NCBI RefSeq assembly: GCF_023370115.1 | Contig: NZ_CP097160.1 | Location: 310,001 to 374,000, forward strand | Origin: Gulosibacter sediminis | GTDB lineage: Bacteria; Actinomycetota; Actinomycetes; Actinomycetales; Microbacteriaceae | Length of the DNA: 64,000 nucleotides | Direction: 5' to 3' | The notes under the pieces: model-generated | Database searches by the model: none | Seen by the model: only the letters and a program-made list of their open reading frames with translations | What the model was told of the DNA's origin: nothing | In this document: positions 41,099-60,802 of the stretch, piece by piece | Numbering within the stretch: position 1 is the stretch's first letter | Layout of the letters: every line of letters starts with the position of its first letter | Program-made: the position numbers and the translations under genes

Positions 41099-41923
41099 TT
41101 AGTAGCTTGCGCGCTCGCCGGTGCCCGCCACGCCGGAGCGCTCGTGGAGGAACGTATCGGCAAGCTTTTCGGATGCGCGGGCCAGCAGCGAGACATCGGC
41201 CGCGACGAGGATGAAGTCCATGCCGTCGTCGAGGTAGCCGAGCGCGACCTGCTGGTCGAACGCGTTGATACCGACCGGCTTCCCGGCCGTGCGGGCGGCC
41301 GCGATCGCCGAGCGCACCCCGGCCACAACATCCGGATGCGTCTGCTGGCCGATGAAGCCCATTGAGGCCGCGAGGTCGCTCGGGCCGATGAAGATGCCGT
41401 CGACACCCTCGGTGTTCACGATCGCCTCGACGTTCTCCACCGCCTCCGCCGACTCGATCTGCACGAACAGCGAGACGAGCTCGTCGTTGGCGCGCCCCAG
41501 GTAACCGTCGACGCGGTTCCAGCGGCCGCCGCGCGAGAGCGCGGCGCCGACGCCGCGCACGCCGGCGGGCGGGTAGCGGACCGCACGAACTGCGGCAGCC
41601 GCATCCTCACCCGAGTTCACCATCGGCACGAGCAGGTTCTGTGCGCCGAGGTCGAGGTACTGCTTGATGAAGACTTCGTTGTTCACGGGCACGCGCACGA
41701 CCGGGGTGACCGGGTAGGCGGCGAGGATCTGCAGCTGGGTCTGGATCGACTCGAGCGAGAGCGGGGCGTGCTCGCCGTCGATGAGGACCCAGTCGAGGCC
41801 TGAGCCGGCGGCGATCTCGGCGTTCACCGTCGAGCCCGAGCAGAGCCACATGCCCGCGAGGCCGCGGTCGGCGTCGGCGAGGCGCTGCTTGAAGGTGGGC
41901 GGGAGCTCTAGAGAAAACGACAT
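41099..41923 (-). CDS. hpaI: 4-hydroxy-2-oxoheptanedioate aldolase (HpcH/HpaI family)
   Basis: The product has 274 residues, a class II metal-dependent aldolase. VLIDGEHAPLSLESIQ, RVPVNNEVFIKQYLDLGAQNLLVPMVNS, VQIESAEAVENV (metal Glu) and GVDGIFIGPSDLAASMG (metal Asp) are present. In homoprotocatechuate breakdown it cleaves 4-hydroxy-2-oxoheptanedioate to pyruvate and succinate semialdehyde. It overlaps hpaH by 16 nt on the same strand, which supports the specific assignment over general HpcH/HpaI aldolases. Confidence 0.9.
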   Translation of the reverse strand: MSFSLELPPTFKQRLADADRGLAGMWLCSGSTVNAEIAAGSGLDWVLIDGEHAPLSLESIQTQLQILAAYPVTPVVRVPVNNEVFIKQYLDLGAQNLLVPMVNSGEDAAAAVRAVRYPPAGVRGVGAALSRGGRWNRVDGYLGRANDELVSLFVQIESAEAVENVEAIVNTEGVDGIFIGPSDLAASMGFIGQQTHPDVVAGVRSAIAAARTAGKPVGINAFDQQVALGYLDDGMDFILVAADVSLLARASEKLADTFLHERSGVAGTGERASY

Positions 41924-42693
41924 GAAATGGTGCCCATCTTTCCGTAGTCACACACGACCGAGTCGCCGCGCTCGACCCACATGGGGCGGGTGAACGAGCC
42001 GGCGAGGATGATCTCGCCGGCCTCGAGGCGCGAGCCGTGCTGGTGGAACTTGTTCGCGAGCCAGGCGACGCCCGTGGCGGGGTGGTTGAGCACGCCCGCG
42101 GCGACGCCGGTCTCTTCGATCGTCTCGTTCTTGTAGAGGAGCGCCGAGACCCAGCGCAGGTCGATCTCGTCGGGGCGCATCGGGATGCCGCCGAGCACCA
42201 TGCCGCCGTAGGCCGCGTTGTCCGAGATGGTGTCGACGATCGTGCGGCCCTCCATCTCGATGTGCGAGTTGAGCACCTCAAGCGCGGGCGTGACGAACTC
42301 GGTGGCGCGGATCACGTCGAACAGCGAGCAGTTCGGGCCCTCGAGCGGCGACTTGAGCACGAACGCGAGCTCAACCTCGATGCGCACGTTGGTGAACTGG
42401 TCGAAGTCGATGACCGAGCCGTTTTCGTAGACGGTGTCGTCGAACATGACGCCGTAGTCGGGCTCGGTGATGCCGGTCGCGGCCTGCATCGCCTTCGAGG
42501 TGAGGCCGATCTTGCGGCCGACGAGCTTGCGGCCGGCGGCGACCTGGCTGTCGCGCCAGACACCCTGGATTGCGTAGGAGTCCTCGACGGTCGCGTCGGG
42601 GTAGCGGGCGGTGATGCGGGGGATCACCGTGTGAGTGCGCTCGGCGTCGGCGAGCTCCTCGGCAATCTTTCTGATGTCCTCATTGGCAAGCAT
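41908..42693 (-). CDS. hpaH: 2-oxo-hept-4-ene-1,7-dioate hydratase
   Basis: The product has 261 residues of the FAH-fold hydratase branch (HpaH/MhpD). GRKIGLTSKAMQAATGITEPDYGVMFDDTVYENGS, RIEVELAFVLKSPL (metal Glu residues) and AAYGGMVLGGIPMRPDEIDLRWV are typical of HpaH. It adds water to 2-oxohept-4-ene-1,7-dioate before HpaI cleaves the product. ATG 42693 has TATGAT 6 nt upstream on the minus strand, suggesting a leaderless mRNA; the frame runs to 42720. It lies 13 kb away from hpaD and hpaE. Confidence 0.92.
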   Translation of the reverse strand: MLANEDIRKIAEELADAERTHTVIPRITARYPDATVEDSYAIQGVWRDSQVAAGRKLVGRKIGLTSKAMQAATGITEPDYGVMFDDTVYENGSVIDFDQFTNVRIEVELAFVLKSPLEGPNCSLFDVIRATEFVTPALEVLNSHIEMEGRTIVDTISDNAAYGGMVLGGIPMRPDEIDLRWVSALLYKNETIEETGVAAGVLNHPATGVAWLANKFHQHGSRLEAGEIILAGSFTRPMWVERGDSVVCDYGKMGTISCRFL

Positions 42694-42699
42694 GCGCCG

Positions 42700-42705
42700 A
42701 TCATA
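42700..42705 (-). promoter_or_regulatory. Leaderless-type -10 box for hpaHI
   Basis: TATGAT on the minus strand, 6 nt before ATG 42693. It is close to the ideal TATAAT. Confidence 0.55.
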
Positions 42706-42786
42706 TTTGATTTGCCTCACCCTCGTCCGAGTGCTTGCCGGTGGCCGCCGCCCGAGCTCTCAACTGCCCGACCGCTCAACCGCGAA

Positions 42787-48455: not shown

Positions 48456-49946
48456 ATGACGCGCACACACGACGAGTGGCAGGCCGCCGCGGCCGCCCTC
48501 ACCTTTGACGGCCGCCCGTTCATCGGCGGTGCCCGCGTCGACGCCCACTCGGGCGCGACGATCGCGAAGACGAGCCCGGCGACGGGCGAGGTCATCTCGC
48601 ACATCCACGCCTGCGACGACGTCGACGTTGATGCGGCGGTCGCCGCCGCGCGCGCCGCCTACGACGCGGGCGAATGGTCGCGGGCCGGCGCCGGGTTCCG
48701 GCGCGAGCGCCTGCTCGAGTTCGCCCGGCTCATGGAGGCCCGCGCCGACGAGTTCGCCCTCTACGACACCCTCGACATGGGCAAGCCCGTGCGCGAGTCG
48801 TCGACGGTGGATGCGCCGGGCTCGGCCGCGCTCTACCGCTTCTATGGCGAGGCGATCGAGAAGCTCGAGGACGTGGTGCCCGTGACGCCGCCCGGCTCGA
48901 CCGCGCTCGTCACCCGCGAGGCACTCGGCGTTGTCGCGGTGATCGTCGCCTGGAACTACCCGCTCGAGATCGCGACCTGGAAGATCGCGCCGGCCCTCGC
49001 CGTCGGCAACTCGGTCGTCGTGAAGCCGCCAGTCGAGGCCTCGCACTCGACGCTGCTGCTCGCCGAGCTCGCGCTCGAGGCGGGCATCCCTGCGGGCGTC
49101 TTCAACGTCGTGACGGGCCGCGGCTCGACGGTCGGGCGCGCGCTCGGCCTGCACAACGACGTCGACATGCTCGCGTTCACCGGCTCGACCGAGGTCGCGA
49201 AGCAGCTGCAGCAGTACGCGGGGCAGTCGAACATGAAGCGGCTCGCCCTCGAGGCGGGCGGCAAGAGCTCGAACCTCATCTTCGCCGACTGCGACGACCT
49301 GCAGCTCGCTGCCGAAAAGGCCGCGTTCGGCAGCTTCTACAACCAGGGCGAGGTGTGCTCGGCCAACTCGCGCATTTTCGTCGAGCGGCCGGTGTACGGC
49401 GAGTTCGTGCGCCTTTATGTCGAGGCGGCGGCCGCGTACGCGCCTGGCGACCCACTCGACCCGGCCTCGGGCACGGGCTCGCTCGTGTCGAACGCCCACG
49501 CCGACAGCGTCTGGGACGCTATTGAGCGCGCGCGCTCGGCCGGCACGATCGTCGCCGGCGGCAACCGGCCCGCGATCAACGGCTCGACGGCCTTCATCGA
49601 GCCGACGATCGTGACCGACGTGCCGGACGACCACGAACTGCACACGCACGAGCTGTTCGGCCCGGTCGCGGTCGTCACCCCGTTCGACAATGAAGAAGAG
49701 GCGATCGCCCGCGCGAACGAGACGCCCTACGGCCTCGCGGCCTCGCTCTGGACAGGCTCGCTCGCCCGCGCGCACCGGGTGTCGTCGCAGCTCGTCGCTG
49801 GCACCGTCTCGGTGAACACCGTCGACGCGCTCGGGTTCACGACCCCGTTCGGCGGCTTCAAGCAGTCGGGCTTCGGCCGCGACCTCTCGGTGCACGCCCT
49901 CGAGAACTACACCGACTACAAGACGACCTGGATGCAGTGGGGTTAG
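48456..49946 (+). CDS. Aldehyde dehydrogenase (PuuC-like)
   Basis: The product has 496 residues. Asn167 lies in VAWNYPLEIATWKIAPALAVGN, Glu266 in LALEAGGKSSNLIF and Cys301 in NQGEVCSANSR; the full NAD-binding domain is intact. It resembles aminoaldehyde/gamma-glutamyl-aminobutyraldehyde dehydrogenases. GAAGGAG lies upstream of ATG 48456. It is last in the ridA operon and could also oxidise the arylacetaldehyde made by the nearby amine oxidase (inference). A perfect palindromic terminator follows. Confidence 0.94.
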   Translation: MTRTHDEWQAAAAALTFDGRPFIGGARVDAHSGATIAKTSPATGEVISHIHACDDVDVDAAVAAARAAYDAGEWSRAGAGFRRERLLEFARLMEARADEFALYDTLDMGKPVRESSTVDAPGSAALYRFYGEAIEKLEDVVPVTPPGSTALVTREALGVVAVIVAWNYPLEIATWKIAPALAVGNSVVVKPPVEASHSTLLLAELALEAGIPAGVFNVVTGRGSTVGRALGLHNDVDMLAFTGSTEVAKQLQQYAGQSNMKRLALEAGGKSSNLIFADCDDLQLAAEKAAFGSFYNQGEVCSANSRIFVERPVYGEFVRLYVEAAAAYAPGDPLDPASGTGSLVSNAHADSVWDAIERARSAGTIVAGGNRPAINGSTAFIEPTIVTDVPDDHELHTHELFGPVAVVTPFDNEEEAIARANETPYGLAASLWTGSLARAHRVSSQLVAGTVSVNTVDALGFTTPFGGFKQSGFGRDLSVHALENYTDYKTTWMQWG

Positions 49947-50945: not shown

Positions 50946-52916
50946 CTACTCGCAGCCGCAGTGGCCGGCGCCCTCGGCACCACCCTCGCCACGCTGGGCG
51001 GCGCAGTGCGCGGAGGCCGGGCGGGGCACATCCAGCGTCGGGTTCTGGTCGAAGAAGCCGTAGGGCTTCATCGAGAAGCCGAGGCGGTCGACGGGCATGA
51101 TCGGCCAGTCCTCGGGGCGCGGGAAGTGGGTCATCGCGAACGAGCACCACACGACGATGTCGTCGCCGTCGACGGGCCGCTGCTGCTCGACCCACTGGGC
51201 GATCGTGCCCTGCTTGCCCGAGTGCTGGTTCGGGTAGGTGCCCGAGGGGAAGCGCTCGTCGGCGTCGAAGTGCGTGAGCCAGAGGTGGTTCTTGCCGTAG
51301 GCCGCGCGGCGCGAGATCGACGAGCCCTCGGCCGCCATCATCGTCGGCTGGTCGGCGGCGCGCAGCTCGTAGCCGACGGGAAAGCCGTGGCGGTTGAGCT
51401 TCGACGGGTTGACGATGTGCCACACGCGACCGGTCTCGCCGTTCGCCTGGCGCCCGCCCTCTTCGGTGAGGCGCGTGACCTTGCGGGTGAAACCGTTGCC
51501 CCAGGGGTTGTCGTCGCCGAACGGCACGCGCAGGGCCTCGTGCTCGTCGACCGCGTTCTCGAGGCCGTCGACCGACATGTCGAGTCGGGCGCAGAACATG
51601 TGCTGGTGGAACGGCATGCCGAGGCCCTCGTCGCCGAGGGGCGACGACCAGCGCCGGCGCTGCTCTTCGTCGGCGTACGCGGCGGTGTAGACGATGCCGG
51701 TCGCCTTGCACTCGAGCTCGATCGTGCCGTCGAGGTAGAGGTACCAGTAGAAGCCATAGTCGTAGTTGCCGACCGTGATGAAGAATGAGATGACGAGGCG
51801 GCGATTGCGGCGCACATCCACCGCGCCCGTGAACTCGTCGGTGTGCTTCCAGAGGATGCCGGCGTCTTCTTCGTGAATGCAGATGGCGTTCTTGATCGTG
51901 CGGGCGTGGCCCTGGTCGTCGGCGACTACCGCATCCGAGTAGTGAATCTCGCCGAGGCAGTCGCAGCCAAGCTCGAGCGAGTTCGCGTTCTTGCCCATCG
52001 AATACTCGCCGGCGTCGAAGTAGTTCTGCCAGAACCGCACGGGGCTTGGGTCGCCGTAGGGCACGACCATTTCCGCGACCGAGGCGCGGTAGATGATCGG
52101 CCGCACGGTGCCTTCTTCGCTGAAGCCGATCTGGTGCAGCACGAGGCCCTCGACCGGGTCGAAGCCGAGGCGCACCTGCCACTTCTCCCACGTGAGCACG
52201 TCGCCATCGAGGCTGAAGCTCGCGCCCTCGGGCTGGGTGATCTCGATCGGCTTCTGCGTCGTGCGGGGCTCGGGCAGCCACTCGTCGAGGTGGTAGTTGA
52301 AGCTCTCCTGCGGCACCGGCACGACGTCGGTGTCGATGACCTCGACGACCTCGCCGGTATTGAGGTCGAGGTAGGCGACGAGGCCCTCAAGCGGATGCGC
52401 CCAGGCGTTCTCCTCGGGCGTCGCCTGGATGAACGAGGAGCCGCGCACAAGTCGGCGGCCCTCCTCGCCCGGGATGTCGAAGATGCCTGCCGAGAGCGCG
52501 CAGACGCGCACCGAGTCGATGTCGGTGATGCCACGCTTCTCGACGGCGGCGCGCCAGGTCGGGTCCTGGCGGATGAGCTGCTCGGAGGCCTCGTACTCGG
52601 TGAGGGTGATTGGCGCCTGGCCCTCGGTCTCGACGTCGAGCACACGGGCGAGTAGCACCCTGTCGTTCGTGAGCGAAACGAGCACCTCGGTCTGTTCGCG
52701 GGTGCTCGGCTCGACGAGCAGGGTGCGCACCTGGCGGTCGAGGTCGCGGTTGCCGGCGATGACCTCGCGCTTGTCGGGCTCGACGAGGCTTACGAGCGCG
52801 AACAGGGTGCGCTCGGTGACGTGGCCCGCGCTGCCGATAATCGCTCGGTTGCGCTCGATCTCGTCGGCCGTGAGGCGGTTGAGCGGATGCTGTGGGGCGC
52901 TCGGTGTGGTGGTCAT
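50946..52916 (-). CDS. Copper-containing primary amine oxidase
   Basis: The product has 656 residues. The TPQ cofactor precursor is Tyr385 in TVGNYDY, close to Tyr382 of the Arthrobacter globiformis enzyme. Copper His residues lie in PFHQHMF and MTHFPRPEDWP, and the catalytic-base Asp in FWQNYFDAGEYSMG. It oxidises primary amines such as tyramine, dopamine or phenethylamine to aldehydes with H2O2 and ammonia. ATG 52916 has AAGGGAG 8-9 nt upstream; ATG 52937 is an alternative. The C-terminal tail (SAHCAAQRGEGGAEGAGHCG and CE) is unusually rich in Cys, His and Gly. Confidence 0.96.
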   Translation of the reverse strand: MTTTPSAPQHPLNRLTADEIERNRAIIGSAGHVTERTLFALVSLVEPDKREVIAGNRDLDRQVRTLLVEPSTREQTEVLVSLTNDRVLLARVLDVETEGQAPITLTEYEASEQLIRQDPTWRAAVEKRGITDIDSVRVCALSAGIFDIPGEEGRRLVRGSSFIQATPEENAWAHPLEGLVAYLDLNTGEVVEVIDTDVVPVPQESFNYHLDEWLPEPRTTQKPIEITQPEGASFSLDGDVLTWEKWQVRLGFDPVEGLVLHQIGFSEEGTVRPIIYRASVAEMVVPYGDPSPVRFWQNYFDAGEYSMGKNANSLELGCDCLGEIHYSDAVVADDQGHARTIKNAICIHEEDAGILWKHTDEFTGAVDVRRNRRLVISFFITVGNYDYGFYWYLYLDGTIELECKATGIVYTAAYADEEQRRRWSSPLGDEGLGMPFHQHMFCARLDMSVDGLENAVDEHEALRVPFGDDNPWGNGFTRKVTRLTEEGGRQANGETGRVWHIVNPSKLNRHGFPVGYELRAADQPTMMAAEGSSISRRAAYGKNHLWLTHFDADERFPSGTYPNQHSGKQGTIAQWVEQQRPVDGDDIVVWCSFAMTHFPRPEDWPIMPVDRLGFSMKPYGFFDQNPTLDVPRPASAHCAAQRGEGGAEGAGHCGCE

Positions 52917-52978
52917 GACGACTTCTCCCTTGTCCATGCCGTGTGGGTGTACGGGTTCGCCGCGGCACTGCGGCGCCC

Positions 52979-55359: not shown

Positions 55360-56502
55360 TTAGAGCTGGCTGCCTACCTTGAAGCCCTTGGTGTCGTCAC
55401 CGTCGCGGGTGTACGAGAAGCCGTCGGCGCCGATGGTCTGGGCCATTTCGGATGCGTCGGTGCGGGCAATCACCGGTTGCGGGTTGCCGTCGAGGTCGAG
55501 CACGAGCGAGGCGTCGGTGTACCACGACGGCACGACCGGGTTGCCCCACCAGTCGCGGCGCTGGTTGTCGTGCACGTCCCACGTGACGACCGGGTTGTCG
55601 GGGTCGCCGGTGTAGTAGTCCTGCGTGTAGATCTCGACGCGGTGGCCGTCGGGGTCGCGCAGGTAGAGGTAGAACGCGTTCGAGACGCCGTGGCGGCCGG
55701 GGCCGCGCTCGATCGCATCCGAGTACCGCAGCGCGCCGAGCTTGTCGCAGATCGCGAGAATGTTGTGCTTCTCGTGCGTCGCGAACGCGATGTGGTGCAT
55801 ACGGGGGCCGTCGCCACCGGTCGCGGCCGTGTCGTGCACGGTCGGCTTGCGGCGCATCCAGGCGGCGTAGACGGTGCCTTCCTTGTCCTGGATGTCCTCG
55901 GTCACGCGGAAGCCGAGGTCCTGGTAGTGGCGCACGGCGCGCGGCACGTCGGGGGTGACCTGGTTGAAGTGGTCGAGGCGCACGAGCTCGCCCGGAATCT
56001 GCAGGTCGTAGCGCCACGAGAGGCGCTCGACGTGGTCGGTCTCGTAGAAGAACTCGTACGGGAACCCGAGCGGGTCCTCGACGCGCACCGAGTCGCCGAT
56101 GCCCTTGGTGAAGCCCTCAGGGCGGCGCTCGACGCGGCAGCCGAGCTCCTCGTAGAAGGCGACGGCCTTGTCGAGGTCTTCCGGCGTGCGCACGCGGTAC
56201 GAGAACGCGGCGACGGCGGCGACGGGGCCCTTGCGCAGCACGAGGTTGTGGTGGATGAACTCCTCGGTCGAGCGCAGGTAGATCGCCTCGTCGTCTTCCT
56301 CGGTCACGTGCAGGCCGAGAATGTCGACGTAGAACTCACGCGACTTCGCGAGGTCGGTGACGACGAGATCCATGTAGGCGCAGCGCAGGATGTCCGGAGC
56401 CTCGGCCTTCGGCGTCGCGACCGGGTTCGCGGGCTCGATCGGGGCTTCCTTGGTGACGTAGAAGCCGGCCGACGTGCGGTCCTCTTCTCTGAATGCAGAC
56501 AT
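55360..56502 (-). CDS. hpaD: 3,4-dihydroxyphenylacetate 2,3-dioxygenase (VOC-type extradiol dioxygenase)
   Basis: The product has 380 residues. The 2-His-1-carboxylate metal site is His178 (RLDHFNQV), His237 (RMHHIAFATHEKHN) and Glu290 (GHRVEIYTQDYYTGDPD), as in the Mn/Fe enzymes of Arthrobacter and Brevibacterium. It opens homoprotocatechuate to 5-carboxymethyl-2-hydroxymuconate semialdehyde. ATG 56502 is the start. hpaE lies 39 bp upstream on the same strand, so hpaG, gntR, hpaE and hpaD form one operon. Confidence 0.95.
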   Translation of the reverse strand: MSAFREEDRTSAGFYVTKEAPIEPANPVATPKAEAPDILRCAYMDLVVTDLAKSREFYVDILGLHVTEEDDEAIYLRSTEEFIHHNLVLRKGPVAAVAAFSYRVRTPEDLDKAVAFYEELGCRVERRPEGFTKGIGDSVRVEDPLGFPYEFFYETDHVERLSWRYDLQIPGELVRLDHFNQVTPDVPRAVRHYQDLGFRVTEDIQDKEGTVYAAWMRRKPTVHDTAATGGDGPRMHHIAFATHEKHNILAICDKLGALRYSDAIERGPGRHGVSNAFYLYLRDPDGHRVEIYTQDYYTGDPDNPVVTWDVHDNQRRDWWGNPVVPSWYTDASLVLDLDGNPQPVIARTDASEMAQTIGADGFSYTRDGDDTKGFKVGSQL

Positions 56503-56541: not shown

Positions 56542-58035
56542 CTACTTGCCGGTGCCGAAGCGCGGGCTGTGCGCCTCGTTCAGCGTGATCTGAATCGACT
56601 GCTGCGTCGTGTAGAAGTCGACCGAGCGGTAGCCGCCCTCGCGGCCGAGGCCCGACGCCTTCACGCCGCCGAACGGGGTGCGCAGGTCGCGAACGTTGTT
56701 CGAGTTGAGCCACACCATGCCCGACTCGATCGCGCCAGCGAAGTTGTGCGCGCGCTTGAGGTTCGAGGTCCACACGTAGGCGGCGAGGCCGTACTTCGTG
56801 TTGTTTGCGAGCTCGAGCGCCTCTTCGTCGGTGTCGAACGGGGTGATCGCCACGACCGGGCCGAAGATCTCTTCCTGGAAGATGCGCGCATCCGGCTTCA
56901 CGTCGGCGAAGACAGTCGGCGCGACGTAGGTGCCCTCGGGGAAGTTCTCGGGGCGACCGCCACCGGCGAGGAGGCGACCCTCCGACTTACCGATCTCGAT
57001 GTACTCCATGACCTTCTCGAAGTGGGTCGGGTGCACGAGCGCCGCGACCTCGGTCTTCGGGTCGCCGGGCTCGCCGACGACGATGTTCTTCGCGCGCTCG
57101 GCGAAGCGAGCCACGAAGTCGTCGTAGATGTCGCGCTGCACGAGCACGCGCGAACCGGCGGTGCAACGCTCGCCGTTCAGGCTGAAGACACCGAAGACGG
57201 TCGCGTCGAGCGCGGCCTCGATGTCGGCGTCGGCGAACACGACGGCGGGGCTCTTGCCACCGAGCTCGAGCGAGAGGCCCTTGAGCATCGGCGCGGCGTT
57301 CGTCGAGAGGGTCGCGCCGGTCGAGCTGTCGCCGGTGAACGAGATGAGGGGCACGTTCGGGTGCTTCACGAGCGCGTCGCCCGCGGTGCTGCCCGAGCCG
57401 AACACGAGGTTGAAGACGCCCTTCGGCAGGCCGGCTTCTTCGAAGATCTCGGGCCACAGGGCGGCCGAGAGCGGAGTGTAGCTGGCAGGCTTGAGCACGA
57501 CGCTGTTACCGGTCGCGATGGCCGGCGCGAGCTTCCACGACTCCTGCATGAACGGCACGTTCCAGGGCGTGATGAGGCCAGCGACACCGATCGGCTTGCG
57601 GTTGACGTAGTTCATCTGGCGGCCGGGCACGCGGAACGCGTTGTCCTGCTGCGCGACGATCAGGTCGGCGAAGAAACGGAAGTTCTCGGCCGCGCGGCGG
57701 GCCTGGCCCTTTGCCTGGGTGATCGGCAGACCCGAGTCCCAGCTCTCGATGAGCGCAAGGCGCTCGTCGCGCGACTCGATGATGTCGGCGATCTTGTGCA
57801 GCACGCGCGAGCGGTCGCGGTTGAGCGCACGCGACCAGCTGCCCTCGTCGAAGGCGCGCTGAGCGGCGGCGACGGCGAGGTCGACGTCGTCCTTGTCGCC
57901 CGAGGCCGTGGTCATGTAGGTCTCGTTGGTGGCGGGGTTGATCACATCGAAGGTCTTGCCGGACTTGGCGTCGACGAACTCACCGTCGATGTAGAGCTGG
58001 ATGTGGCTCGGGAGATCTGCGGGACGAGTAGTCAT
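56542..58035 (-). CDS. hpaE: 5-carboxymethyl-2-hydroxymuconate semialdehyde dehydrogenase
   Basis: The product has 497 residues of the HpaE branch of aldehyde dehydrogenases: Asn159 in LITPWNVPFMQESWKLAPA, Glu257 in SLELGGKSPAVVF and Cys291 in SLNGERCTAGSR. It oxidises the ring-cleavage semialdehyde to 5-carboxymethyl-2-hydroxymuconate with NAD. It lies between gntR and hpaD with short gaps (30 and 39 bp). Confidence 0.94.
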   Translation of the reverse strand: MTTRPADLPSHIQLYIDGEFVDAKSGKTFDVINPATNETYMTTASGDKDDVDLAVAAAQRAFDEGSWSRALNRDRSRVLHKIADIIESRDERLALIESWDSGLPITQAKGQARRAAENFRFFADLIVAQQDNAFRVPGRQMNYVNRKPIGVAGLITPWNVPFMQESWKLAPAIATGNSVVLKPASYTPLSAALWPEIFEEAGLPKGVFNLVFGSGSTAGDALVKHPNVPLISFTGDSSTGATLSTNAAPMLKGLSLELGGKSPAVVFADADIEAALDATVFGVFSLNGERCTAGSRVLVQRDIYDDFVARFAERAKNIVVGEPGDPKTEVAALVHPTHFEKVMEYIEIGKSEGRLLAGGGRPENFPEGTYVAPTVFADVKPDARIFQEEIFGPVVAITPFDTDEEALELANNTKYGLAAYVWTSNLKRAHNFAGAIESGMVWLNSNNVRDLRTPFGGVKASGLGREGGYRSVDFYTTQQSIQITLNEAHSPRFGTGK

Positions 58036-58065: not shown

Positions 58066-58758
58066 CTAGGCGCGCGGGCCGCGGGCCTGGTCGGTCTTGG
58101 CGTTGAGCGAGCGCAGCACCGCGTTCATGGTGTTGAGTCGGTGCTCGCGCGCCTGGGTTTCGATTTGGTCTTGGGATGCGCCGGATTCGATGAGCGCGAT
58201 GAGCGCCTCGTGCTCCTCGACGGATGCGGTGGAGCGGCCGGGCACGAACGCGAACGAAGATTCGCGCATGGTCTCGAGTCGGTGCCAGCCGCGGCGCACG
58301 AGGTCAGCGATGTGCGAGTTGTCGCAGTGCTGGAACAGCACGCAGTGGAACTCCTGGTTGAGGCGCGTGAACTTCGCGGCGTCGAGCAGCTCGAGCTCGG
58401 TGAGGGCGCGCATCTGCGCGTTGAGCTCGCGCGCCTCGGCGAGGTTCTCGGGGGTGAGCTTCGGCGCCGACTTCGCGGTCGCGTAGCCCTCGACGAGGCT
58501 CAGCGTCTCCATCGTCTCGTGGTAGACGTCGCTGTTGAGCATCGTCACCTGCGCACCCACGTTGTGCACGAAGGTCACCGCGCCCTCGGCCTCGAGCATC
58601 CGAATCGCCTCGCGCACCGGCACCGTCGAGCAGCCGAGATCGTTCGAGATCTGCGCGAGCACGAGCCGGTAGCCGGGGCCGAACGCACCCGAGGTGATGC
58701 GCTCGCGCAGGTAGTTGTACGCCTGTTGCGTCTTCGACGGTTCGACGGCGGTGGTCAT
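58066..58758 (-). CDS. GntR family regulator (FCD domain) of the hpa operon
   Basis: The product has 230 residues. The winged helix is LVLAQISNDLGCSTVPVREAIRMLEAEGAV (about 38-67). The FCD domain has METLSLVEGYATA, LNQEFHCVLFQHCDN and EEHEALIALIESG. The ATG at 58756-58758 overlaps the stop of the upstream FAH-RraA gene (TAATG), indicating coupling. It probably controls the operon through the ATATACGA repeats at 60267-60288. Confidence 0.93.
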   Translation of the reverse strand: MTTAVEPSKTQQAYNYLRERITSGAFGPGYRLVLAQISNDLGCSTVPVREAIRMLEAEGAVTFVHNVGAQVTMLNSDVYHETMETLSLVEGYATAKSAPKLTPENLAEARELNAQMRALTELELLDAAKFTRLNQEFHCVLFQHCDNSHIADLVRRGWHRLETMRESSFAFVPGRSTASVEEHEALIALIESGASQDQIETQAREHRLNTMNAVLRSLNAKTDQARGPRA

Positions 58759-60221
58759 TATTCGCCGGCCTTCCATGCTTCATACTTCTGCTTCCACTCG
58801 CCGGTGGGCGGGAAGAGGCCGTCGACCTTGTTGCCGGCCTTGACCTGGTCGAAGACCCAGGCGTCCTGCTTCTCCTGCTCGAAGGCGTCGTTGACAACCT
58901 CTTCGAACAGGTGCGGCGGGATCACGATGACGCCGTCGTCGTCGCCGACGATGACGTCGCCGGGCTGCACGGTGGTGCCGCCGCAGGCGATCGTGGCGTC
59001 GAACTCCCACGGCACGTGGCGGCGGCCGAGCACGGCCGGGTGCGAGCTGTTCGAGTAGACCGGGATGCCGAGTTCCGCGACCGCGGCCGAGTCGCGCACG
59101 CCGCCGTCGGTGACGACGCCGGATGCGCCGAGCACCTGGGCGCGCAGGGCGAGCACGTCGCCGAGGGTGCCGGTGCCCTTCTCGCCGCGGGCCTCCATGA
59201 CGACGACGTCGCCGGGCTTGACCGAGTCCATCGCCTGCTTCTGGGCGTTGTAGCCGCCGCCGAACTTCTTGAAGAGGTCTTCGCGGTTCGGCACGTAGCG
59301 GAGGGTCTTCGCGTAGCCGAGGATGCGGCGGCCGGGGTGGTTCGTGGTGGGGCCGTCGATCGAGCAGTTCTCGACGCCGCGCTTGCGCAGCTGTGCCCAG
59401 AGGGTGGCGACGGCGGTCTCGGCGACCTTCTCGCGCAGCTCCTGGGTGATGACGGCGCGCGGGTCAGCGAGGCCAGCCTTCGCCTTCGAGCCCCACGCCT
59501 CCTCACGCTGGGTGTCGTCGACCTTCGGCTGCGCGCCGAATACTGCCAGCCCGTACTGCGACTCGACGACGTTGGTGACCAGGCGCCCGCTCGAGGGGGC
59601 ACCGGGGGCGGTCGGCGCATCCACCTCGACCTCGACGACGTCGCCGGGCTGCGCGACCGAGCTGCCCGCGGGCGTGCCGGTGAGGATGATGTCGCCCACC
59701 TCGAGTGTCATGAGCTGCGAGAGGTCGGCGACGAGCTGGCCGAAGGGGAACGCGAGTTCGGCCGTCGTGTCGTCCTGCACGAGGTTGCCGTTGACCCAGG
59801 TGCGCACGCGCAGCGCCTGCGGGTCGAGGTCGGCGGCCGGGATCACCTCGGGGCCGAGCGGCGTGTAGCCGTCGCCCGACTTGTTCTTCACGTTCGAGCC
59901 CTTGTCGGCGTGGCGGAGGTCGTAGAGGCCCCAGTCGTTCGCGGCGGTGATGCCGCTCACCTTCGACCAGCCCTCTTCGGGGCTGACGCGGCGGCAGGTC
60001 TCGCCGATGATGAGGGCGATCTCGCCCTCGAACGCGAGCAGCTCGGTGCCCTTGGGGCGCTCGATGGTGTCGCCGGTGTTGGCGATCGACGTGCCGGCCT
60101 TGATGAAGTAGCCGGGGAACTTGGGGGAGCGGCCGCGCTCGGCGATGCGGGAAGGGTAGTTCAGGTGCAGGGCAAGAATTTTGCCGGGGCGGTTGGTGCG
60201 GTCGGTGAAGTCGACTGACAT
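58758..60221 (-). CDS. FAH-domain / RraA-like domain fusion, in the HpaG position
   Basis: The product has 487 residues in two parts. Residues 10-230 are a fumarylacetoacetate hydrolase fold (LNYPSRIAERG, AFEGEIALIIG with metal Glu residues, AANDWGLYDLR, DIILTGTPAGSS). Residues about 255-445 are RraA/HMG-aldolase-like (GDVVVMEARG, GDVLALRAQVLGASGVVTDGGVRDSA, DVIVGDDDGVIVIPP; Arg376-Asp377). In E. coli HpaG both halves are FAH folds that decarboxylate and isomerise. Here the FAH half may isomerise and the RraA half decarboxylate (inference). ATG 60221 has AAGGGA upstream. Confidence 0.88.
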   Translation of the reverse strand: MSVDFTDRTNRPGKILALHLNYPSRIAERGRSPKFPGYFIKAGTSIANTGDTIERPKGTELLAFEGEIALIIGETCRRVSPEEGWSKVSGITAANDWGLYDLRHADKGSNVKNKSGDGYTPLGPEVIPAADLDPQALRVRTWVNGNLVQDDTTAELAFPFGQLVADLSQLMTLEVGDIILTGTPAGSSVAQPGDVVEVEVDAPTAPGAPSSGRLVTNVVESQYGLAVFGAQPKVDDTQREEAWGSKAKAGLADPRAVITQELREKVAETAVATLWAQLRKRGVENCSIDGPTTNHPGRRILGYAKTLRYVPNREDLFKKFGGGYNAQKQAMDSVKPGDVVVMEARGEKGTGTLGDVLALRAQVLGASGVVTDGGVRDSAAVAELGIPVYSNSSHPAVLGRRHVPWEFDATIACGGTTVQPGDVIVGDDDGVIVIPPHLFEEVVNDAFEQEKQDAWVFDQVKAGNKVDGLFPPTGEWKQKYEAWKAGE

Positions 60222-60266
60222 TGCGTTTCCCTTCGCGTCGCTGCGATGCAGCTGCGGGTGAGCAGC

Positions 60267-60288
60267 TGATATACGAAATGATATACGA
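60267..60288. promoter_or_regulatory. Operator-like direct repeat before the hpa operon
   Basis: TGATATACGA occurs twice (60267-60276, 60279-60288), 12 bp apart, in an otherwise GC-rich gap upstream of the FAH-RraA gene. It may be the GntR binding site. Confidence 0.55.
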
Positions 60289-60802
60289 TCGCCTGCCGAG
60301 CGCAAGGGGCATTCAGTAGAGGCTCAGTTTTGGGGGTTTGGGCCGGCGGTTTGGGCGGGGCCCGATGCGCGGGTTCGTGCGTCGGTCTGGGCCTGGTCGG
60401 ATGCGCGGCGCGGCCTCGCCCGCGGGTGCGGCCGGTGCCCTTACTCACTTGCTTTGCTGTATGCGCTGGCCACGCTAGCGCGCGAGTCGGAGCGTCACCT
60501 CAACGCGGTCAGCACCGGGCCGCAAAGTGTCCCCGTTGTCCCATTTTTCGCGTTGAAAGTGGGATTTCGGCGACACTCAGCGCGTGGCCAGCGCGAGGTC
60601 CGCGCCCAGCTGCCGCCAGCATCCGGATGCGGTGGTCGACTATCGGTGCGGCCCCGGTCGCGCACCTGCCGTGGCGAACGAACAAGACCCCGCCGCATCC
60701 CGCGCCCCCGACCTAAACCGGCCCGCCAGCCGGCACCCCACATCCCTCTTCCTTGCCCAAACCCGCACCGGCGCGAACCGCCACCCGCCCCGGAAACCCC
60801 AA
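60289..60802. other. Intergenic region between the hpa operon and the MFS gene
   Basis: About 500 bp without a credible gene. It contains the type A element at 60527 and otherwise GC-rich, low-complexity sequence; the short frames here have no coding character. Confidence 0.5.
60527..60576. repeat. Type A hairpin element, copy 4
   Basis: GTGTCCCCGTTGTCCCATTTTT at the left and AAAGTGGGA...GGCGACAC at the right. It is nearly the same as copy 1. Confidence 0.87.

Follow-up and report, generated by a model that had tools for sequence, protein, structure and literature searches.

The window, that is, the whole stretch of 64,000 nucleotides of Gulosibacter sediminis (Actinomycetales) DNA that was analysed, encodes an FAH-RraA fusion protein together with genes of the homoprotocatechuate (hpa) pathway (Table 1). 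The ORF of the fusion starts with ATG at 60219-60221 on the reverse strand, and its GC content by codon position is coding-like. Its stop codon TAA (58760-58758) has one base in common with the ATG (58758-58756) of a GntR regulator gene, which is followed by hpaE and then hpaD. The exact start-stop overlap bears out the initial annotation, in which the fusion had been placed with hpaD and hpaE and described as coupled to their GntR regulator. The hpaH and hpaI-like genes are located in the same window, 13 kb from the fusion. Near these two, we have also identified genes for an aldehyde dehydrogenase (48456-49943) and a copper (primary-)amine oxidase (50949-52937), which would fit entry of tyramine, tyrosine or phenylethylamine into the hpa pathway.

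The region upstream of the fusion contains the 8-mer ATCGTATA, which occurs only once in the window (60282-60289). The same 8-mer was found in 42 of 49 regions upstream of fusion genes (loci L036-L115), versus none of 48 control stretches. It is a candidate operator, to which the coupled GntR regulator would be expected to bind.

Table 1 Features of the hpa locus of G. sediminis, with positions given in the window
Feature	Position	Strand	Evidence or remark
FAH-RraA fusion, 487 aa (predicted HpaG counterpart, NF009399/PRK12764 family)	58758..60221	-	ORF, profiles, structure model
FAH domain, residues 12-204, dyad-less type	59610..60188	-	PF01557, 81/81 conservation, fold match
Linker, residues 205-259, variable	59445..59609	-	Column conservation
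RraA / HMG-CHA-aldolase-like domain, residues 260-486	58764..59444	-	PF03737, 3NOJ and 5X15 fold matches
D355-X20-R376-D377 metal/enolate motif	59091..59159	-	Conservation, alignment with 3NOJ
Candidate operator ATCGTATATCAT-TTCGTATATCAG	60266..60289	-	Upstream of fusion; holds conserved ATCGTATA
GntR/FCD regulator	58066..58758	-	Start codon overlaps fusion stop (TAATG); near fusion in 79/80 loci
hpaE, CHMS dehydrogenase	56542..58035	-	TIGR02299, 639.4 vs cut-off 638.35
hpaD, VOC-type homoprotocatechuate 2,3-dioxygenase	55360..56502	-	TIGR02295, 442.5 vs cut-off 321.4
hpaH, OHED hydratase	41908..42720	-	TIGR02312, 365.0 vs cut-off 351.5
hpaI-like aldolase	41099..41923	-	TIGR02311 best match, 306.0 bits, below cut-off 368.8

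The architecture had been read correctly as an FAH domain joined to an RraA domain with a GGVRD motif: Pfam domains FAA_hydrolase (PF01557, residues 15-201, E 1.2e-50) and RraA-like (PF03737, residues 294-433, E 5.1e-32) were found on the two halves, and GGVRD corresponds to residues 373-377, part of the D-X20-R-D motif. A structure model built from 74 sequences reached a mean pLDDT of 93.6, and an earlier model from eight sequences (pLDDT 67.8) was dropped in its favour. Only 4 of the 55 linker columns are invariant, compared with 60 of 193 and 54 of 226 in the two domains. Comparison with the nearest relative indicates purifying selection on each half, with dN/dS of 0.06/0.16 for FAH and 0.06/0.28 for RraA; the closest named relative is [Zimmermannella] faecalis (90% identity).

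The combination of FAH and RraA in one protein is not new, as NCBIfam has an entry for it, NF009399 (PRK12764), which the fusion matches over residues 6-486 with 818.9 bits (cut-off 444). This family has no assigned reaction and is named only ‘fumarylacetoacetate hydrolase family protein’, and in public annotation the fusion appears as a hydrolase, as a menaquinone methyltransferase or as nothing at all. Within the open-access literature, to which our search was confined, no description of an FAH-RraA fusion in the homoprotocatechuate pathway was found. New here are the link between the NF009399 architecture and HpaG, and the genome survey.

In the FAH half, the metal triad E65, E67 (60021-60029) and D96 (59934-59936), as well as K114, are invariant in all 81 homologues. 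The His-x2-Glu dyad, in turn, is absent: R25 occupies the position of the general-base His in 81/81 sequences, and residue 28, at the position of the dyad Glu, is Q in 73 and E in eight of them. Residues 1-223 of the model match FAH folds with Z-scores of 25-30; in HpcE, it is the C-terminal domain (residues 217-429) that was matched (Z 25.6). The FAH half scored 138.7 bits with TIGR02303 (HpaG-C, cut-off 276.4) and 103.1 bits with TIGR02305 (HpaG-N, cut-off 228.65), and HpaG-C has the His-Glu dyad whereas the fusion does not. In a maximum-likelihood tree of FAH domains, which has long branches and is based on an alignment of short domains, the fusions group with standalone actinobacterial FAHs of the R25 signature (support 98/99). 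Another group (80/87) comprises HpaG-N, HpaG-C, a single FAH from Deinococcus and dyad-type FAHs of other actinobacterial hpa clusters. In view of this tree, we rejected descent of the FAH half from either HpaG-N or HpaG-C. The fusion was therefore not born by exchange of one HpaG half, and the earlier picture of an HpaG with its second half swapped has to be abandoned.

Since the dyad-less clade has standalone members, loss of the dyad was not necessarily caused by the fusion with RraA. Among 12 loci with standalone R25-type FAH that were examined, an acetoacetate-decarboxylase (ADC)-family gene was nearby in ten, six with a LigB-type dioxygenase, and RraA in none. No ADC-family gene was found in the 80 fusion loci, and the actinobacterial hpa clusters with dyad-type FAH have neither RraA nor an ADC-family gene. 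The clusters of standalone dyad-less FAHs (L153-L162) mostly also encode an HpaE-like dehydrogenase and a glutamine-synthetase-like protein, and their gene content points to an apparent role in aromatic (amine) catabolism.

Profile (PF03737), fold and the D-X20-R-D motif all place the second half in the RraA superfamily. D355, R376 and D377 are invariant in 81/81 homologues and align with D102, R123 and D124 of the HMG/CHA aldolase 3NOJ, in a sequence alignment that ends at chain residue 186, short of the second metal ligand Glu-199. Model residues 252-475 match RraAS2 of S. coelicolor (5X15) with a Z-score of 27.7, and the match of this half to 3NOJ has a Z-score of 21.9 and an rmsd of 2.7 over 202 residues. 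With the HMG/CHA aldolase equivalog TIGR02798 (ligK_PcmE) it scored 75.2 bits, below the cut-off of 304.5. A tree of 22 RraA rows was unresolved by long branches and was left out of the conclusions. Standalone RraA proteins with 56% (L167:9167-11805, genome G550) and 47% (L132:5165-7891, genome G109) identity to the half of the fusion are encoded beside a weak HpaD homologue and an HpaI- or DapA-type aldolase, with FAH absent nearby. Plasmid pRLCBG43 of Rhodococcus erythropolis BG43 (L147:6968-8179) encodes a relative of the fusion, 403 aa long, in which FAH is followed by a degenerate RraA-like half devoid of D-X20-R-D.

We collected 80 fusion loci from public genomes, all from Actinomycetota by record titles. 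Within 10 kb of the fusion, GntR is present in 79 of them, HpaE in 76, HpaD in 74, HpaH in 48 and HpaI in 45. Of 297 genomes of the order, 80 encode the fusion and 85 encode HpaD: both were found in 78, the fusion only in two, HpaD only in seven and neither in 210 (Fisher p 1.5e-60, from counts that ignore shared ancestry). The survey proposed with the initial annotation, of how many hpa operons carry the same fusion, gave 77 of the 78 genomes with a strong HpaD (over 400 bits) among the 297 searched. In the remaining genome (G727, L165:12166-13660) the two halves are adjacent in different frames, as a result of either a natural split or a sequencing frameshift. In this order, the predicted HpaG counterpart is regularly the fusion.

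The genes for the last steps vary between fusion loci. HpaH/HpaI are encoded in 48 of them and a DapA-type aldolase in 21, never both (Fisher p 1e-11). The DapA-family gene, with TIGR02313 ‘HpaI-NOT-DapA’ as its best match, is placed between GntR and HpaE (L062, L066, L067, L082, L114 and 16 more loci), and HpaH plus HpaI are thus cleanly exchanged for a DHDPS-type enzyme in these 21 loci. As the fusion is kept whichever of the two sets is present, its task should lie upstream of both.

The genome of G. sediminis (one contig, 2.75 Mb, 99.3% complete) has three genes with an FAH domain (PF01557). Apart from the fusion, these are two single-FAH genes (295 and 256 aa), both beside unrelated genes and away from the hpa genes. 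A separate double-FAH HpaG, which would have spoken against the fusion standing in HpaG's place, was sought among the PF01557 genes of this complete genome and none was found; the fusion itself scored 130.9 bits with PRK15203 (double-FAH HpaG), versus a cut-off of 811. The genome also has no hit for HpaF / CHM isomerase (PF02962), a search which does detect HpaF on two known hpa plasmids used as positive control, and none for 4-oxalocrotonate-type tautomerase (PF01361). HpaF is absent from 47 of 48 fusion genomes and from all 13 HpaD-bearing actinobacterial genomes examined, with and without the fusion. The lack of HpaF therefore goes with actinobacterial hpa pathways as such, not with the fusion, and the idea that RraA specifically replaces HpaF is unsupported.

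From its linkage to hpaD and hpaE and from the lack of another HpaG, the fusion is very probably the actinobacterial counterpart of HpaG. Its predicted place in the meta-cleavage of homoprotocatechuate is after HpaE and before HpaH, with 5-oxo-pent-3-ene-1,2,5-tricarboxylate (OPET) as substrate and 2-oxo-hept-3-ene-1,7-dioate (OHED) as product. The preceding tautomerisation of CHM to OPET would be spontaneous or take place in one of the two pockets of the fusion, as we propose from the genome being without HpaF. The coupled GntR regulator would control the operon, probably via the ATCGTATA operator.

As to the division of labour, we slightly favour decarboxylation by the RraA half and isomerisation by the FAH half over the reverse, and consider the chances of this assignment about even. 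OPET is a vinylogous analogue of oxaloacetate. By analogy with the binding of oxaloacetate to HMG/CHA aldolase, the RraA half would bind OPET by its pyruvoyl end together with a divalent metal, and would remove the vinylogous carboxylate; the metal-bound dienol (HHDD) would then be ketonised by the FAH half, with its intact metal site and without the His-Glu dyad. In favour of this assignment are the intact HMG/CHA-aldolase site, the dyad-less FAH half and the precedent of HMG/CHA aldolase, which decarboxylates oxaloacetate through an enolate (PMC5065237). It is further favoured by the company of dyad-less FAHs, which have a fused RraA or, in ten of the 12 standalone loci, an ADC-family gene, whereas RraA is absent from actinobacterial hpa clusters with a dyad-type FAH. 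Against it speak the greater closeness of the FAH half, with its intact metal triad, to the assigned decarboxylase domain of HpcE, and the R. erythropolis relative, which keeps the FAH half with a degenerate RraA half. For HpcE of E. coli, only the structure underlies the assignment of isomerisation to the N domain and of decarboxylation to the metal-binding C domain (PMC12718150). In FAHD1, decarboxylation has been credited to the metal together with one Gln and one Lys residue, not to the dyad (PMC8398924). In A. baumannii efficient decarboxylation requires a complex of the two FAH proteins (PMC12718150), and a clean split of tasks may therefore not exist.

The reverse assignment, with the FAH half as OPET decarboxylase (possibly also as HHDD isomerase) and RraA as a tautomerase converting CHM to OPET or HHDD to OHED, has perhaps one chance in a few of being right. 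It is consistent with the intact triad, with the higher score of the FAH half on HpaG-C than on HpaG-N (138.7 versus 103.1) and with its placement on residues 217-429 of HpcE in the fold search; however, the FAH half is no descendant of HpaG-C and is without its dyad. It would also fit other Actinobacteria, whose hpa clusters encode a single FAH without RraA. A tautomerase would suit a genome that has neither HpaF nor 4-OT, and the enolate chemistry of HMG/CHA aldolase, with its exchange of pyruvate protons (PMC5065237), would fit such an activity. Yet CHM tautomerises spontaneously (PMC12718150), and with HpaF missing in 13/13 HpaD-bearing actinobacterial genomes, with or without the fusion, RraA is not called for in this role.

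It is very unlikely that the RraA half is an end-of-pathway class II aldolase, acting for or beside HpaI, or a remover of oxaloacetate, with the FAH half alone performing the work of HpaG. Characterised members of the RraA family are 4-hydroxy-2-oxo acid aldolases (PMC5065237) and the D-X20-R-D motif is there, but such an activity would be redundant, as 69 of 80 fusions have HpaH or a gene for an HpaI- or DapA-type aldolase beside them, and an HpaI-like gene lies in the window itself; as a main role, an HpaI-type aldolase was rejected on these counts. A mainly structural role of the RraA half, as the scaffold of a dimer or hexamer, or a regulatory one might be thought of from the name RraA, from the presence of the fold in RNase E regulators and from the one relative with a degenerate RraA half, but is hardly credible given metal/enolate residues invariant in 81 sequences and a dN/dS of 0.06/0.28.

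With RraA as the decarboxylating half, a generalisation may be drawn, which we regard as rather unlikely: dyad-less FAHs would isomerise without decarboxylating, and non-FAH decarboxylase folds would have been recruited at least twice, in Actinomycetes through fusion with RraA in the homoprotocatechuate operon, and in other Actinobacteria in the form of an ADC-family protein in LigB/HpaE-like clusters.

Compared with known systems, the fusion has in common with HpaG/HpcE of E. coli (PRK15203, 1GTT/1I7O) the predicted place in the pathway, an operon beside hpaE and one FAH fold. The E. coli protein, however, consists of two FAH folds, whereas the fusion combines one FAH of another clade with RraA and has no HpaF alongside. 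OPETD and HHDDI of A. baumannii TH (HpaG1/HpaG2; PMC12718150) likewise are two different polypeptide units for the conversion of OPET to OHED, but both are FAH folds encoded by separate genes and are accompanied by a CHMI. The RraA half shares its fold and D102/R123/D124 with the HMG/CHA aldolase of Pseudomonas putida F1 (3NOJ), which, in contrast, is free-standing and belongs to the protocatechuate 4,5-cleavage pathway, while the RraA half is fused to FAH in the homoprotocatechuate pathway. The hpaGLEDHI cluster of Corynebacterium aurimucosum (PMC2830990) has a regulator between hpaG and hpaE, and an hpaG to which OPET decarboxylation has been ascribed on the basis of its sequence. The gene order is the same as at the fusion loci and suggests that this hpaG may be the same fusion.

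A textbook step of aromatic catabolism would thus be carried, in a whole order of bacteria from soil and skin, by a fusion of two unrelated enzyme types, which would explain how these bacteria do without HpaF and HpaG. If RraA decarboxylates OPET, one fold replaces another inside a fused enzyme, and a new reaction is added to the RraA family, whose members are often misnamed ribonuclease regulators. The assignment is relevant for annotating the degradation of tyrosine, tyramine and lignin aromatics. The fusion is common in the genus Arthrobacter, to which Arthrobacter sp. Rue61a belongs; this strain can use tyrosine, 4-hydroxyphenylacetate and homoprotocatechuate for growth (PMC3534580). A PheA/TfdB-type FAD monooxygenase (PRK08294) is encoded at L100:7822-9741 and in 22 other fusion loci, where it may replace HpaBC as 4-hydroxyphenylacetate hydroxylase.
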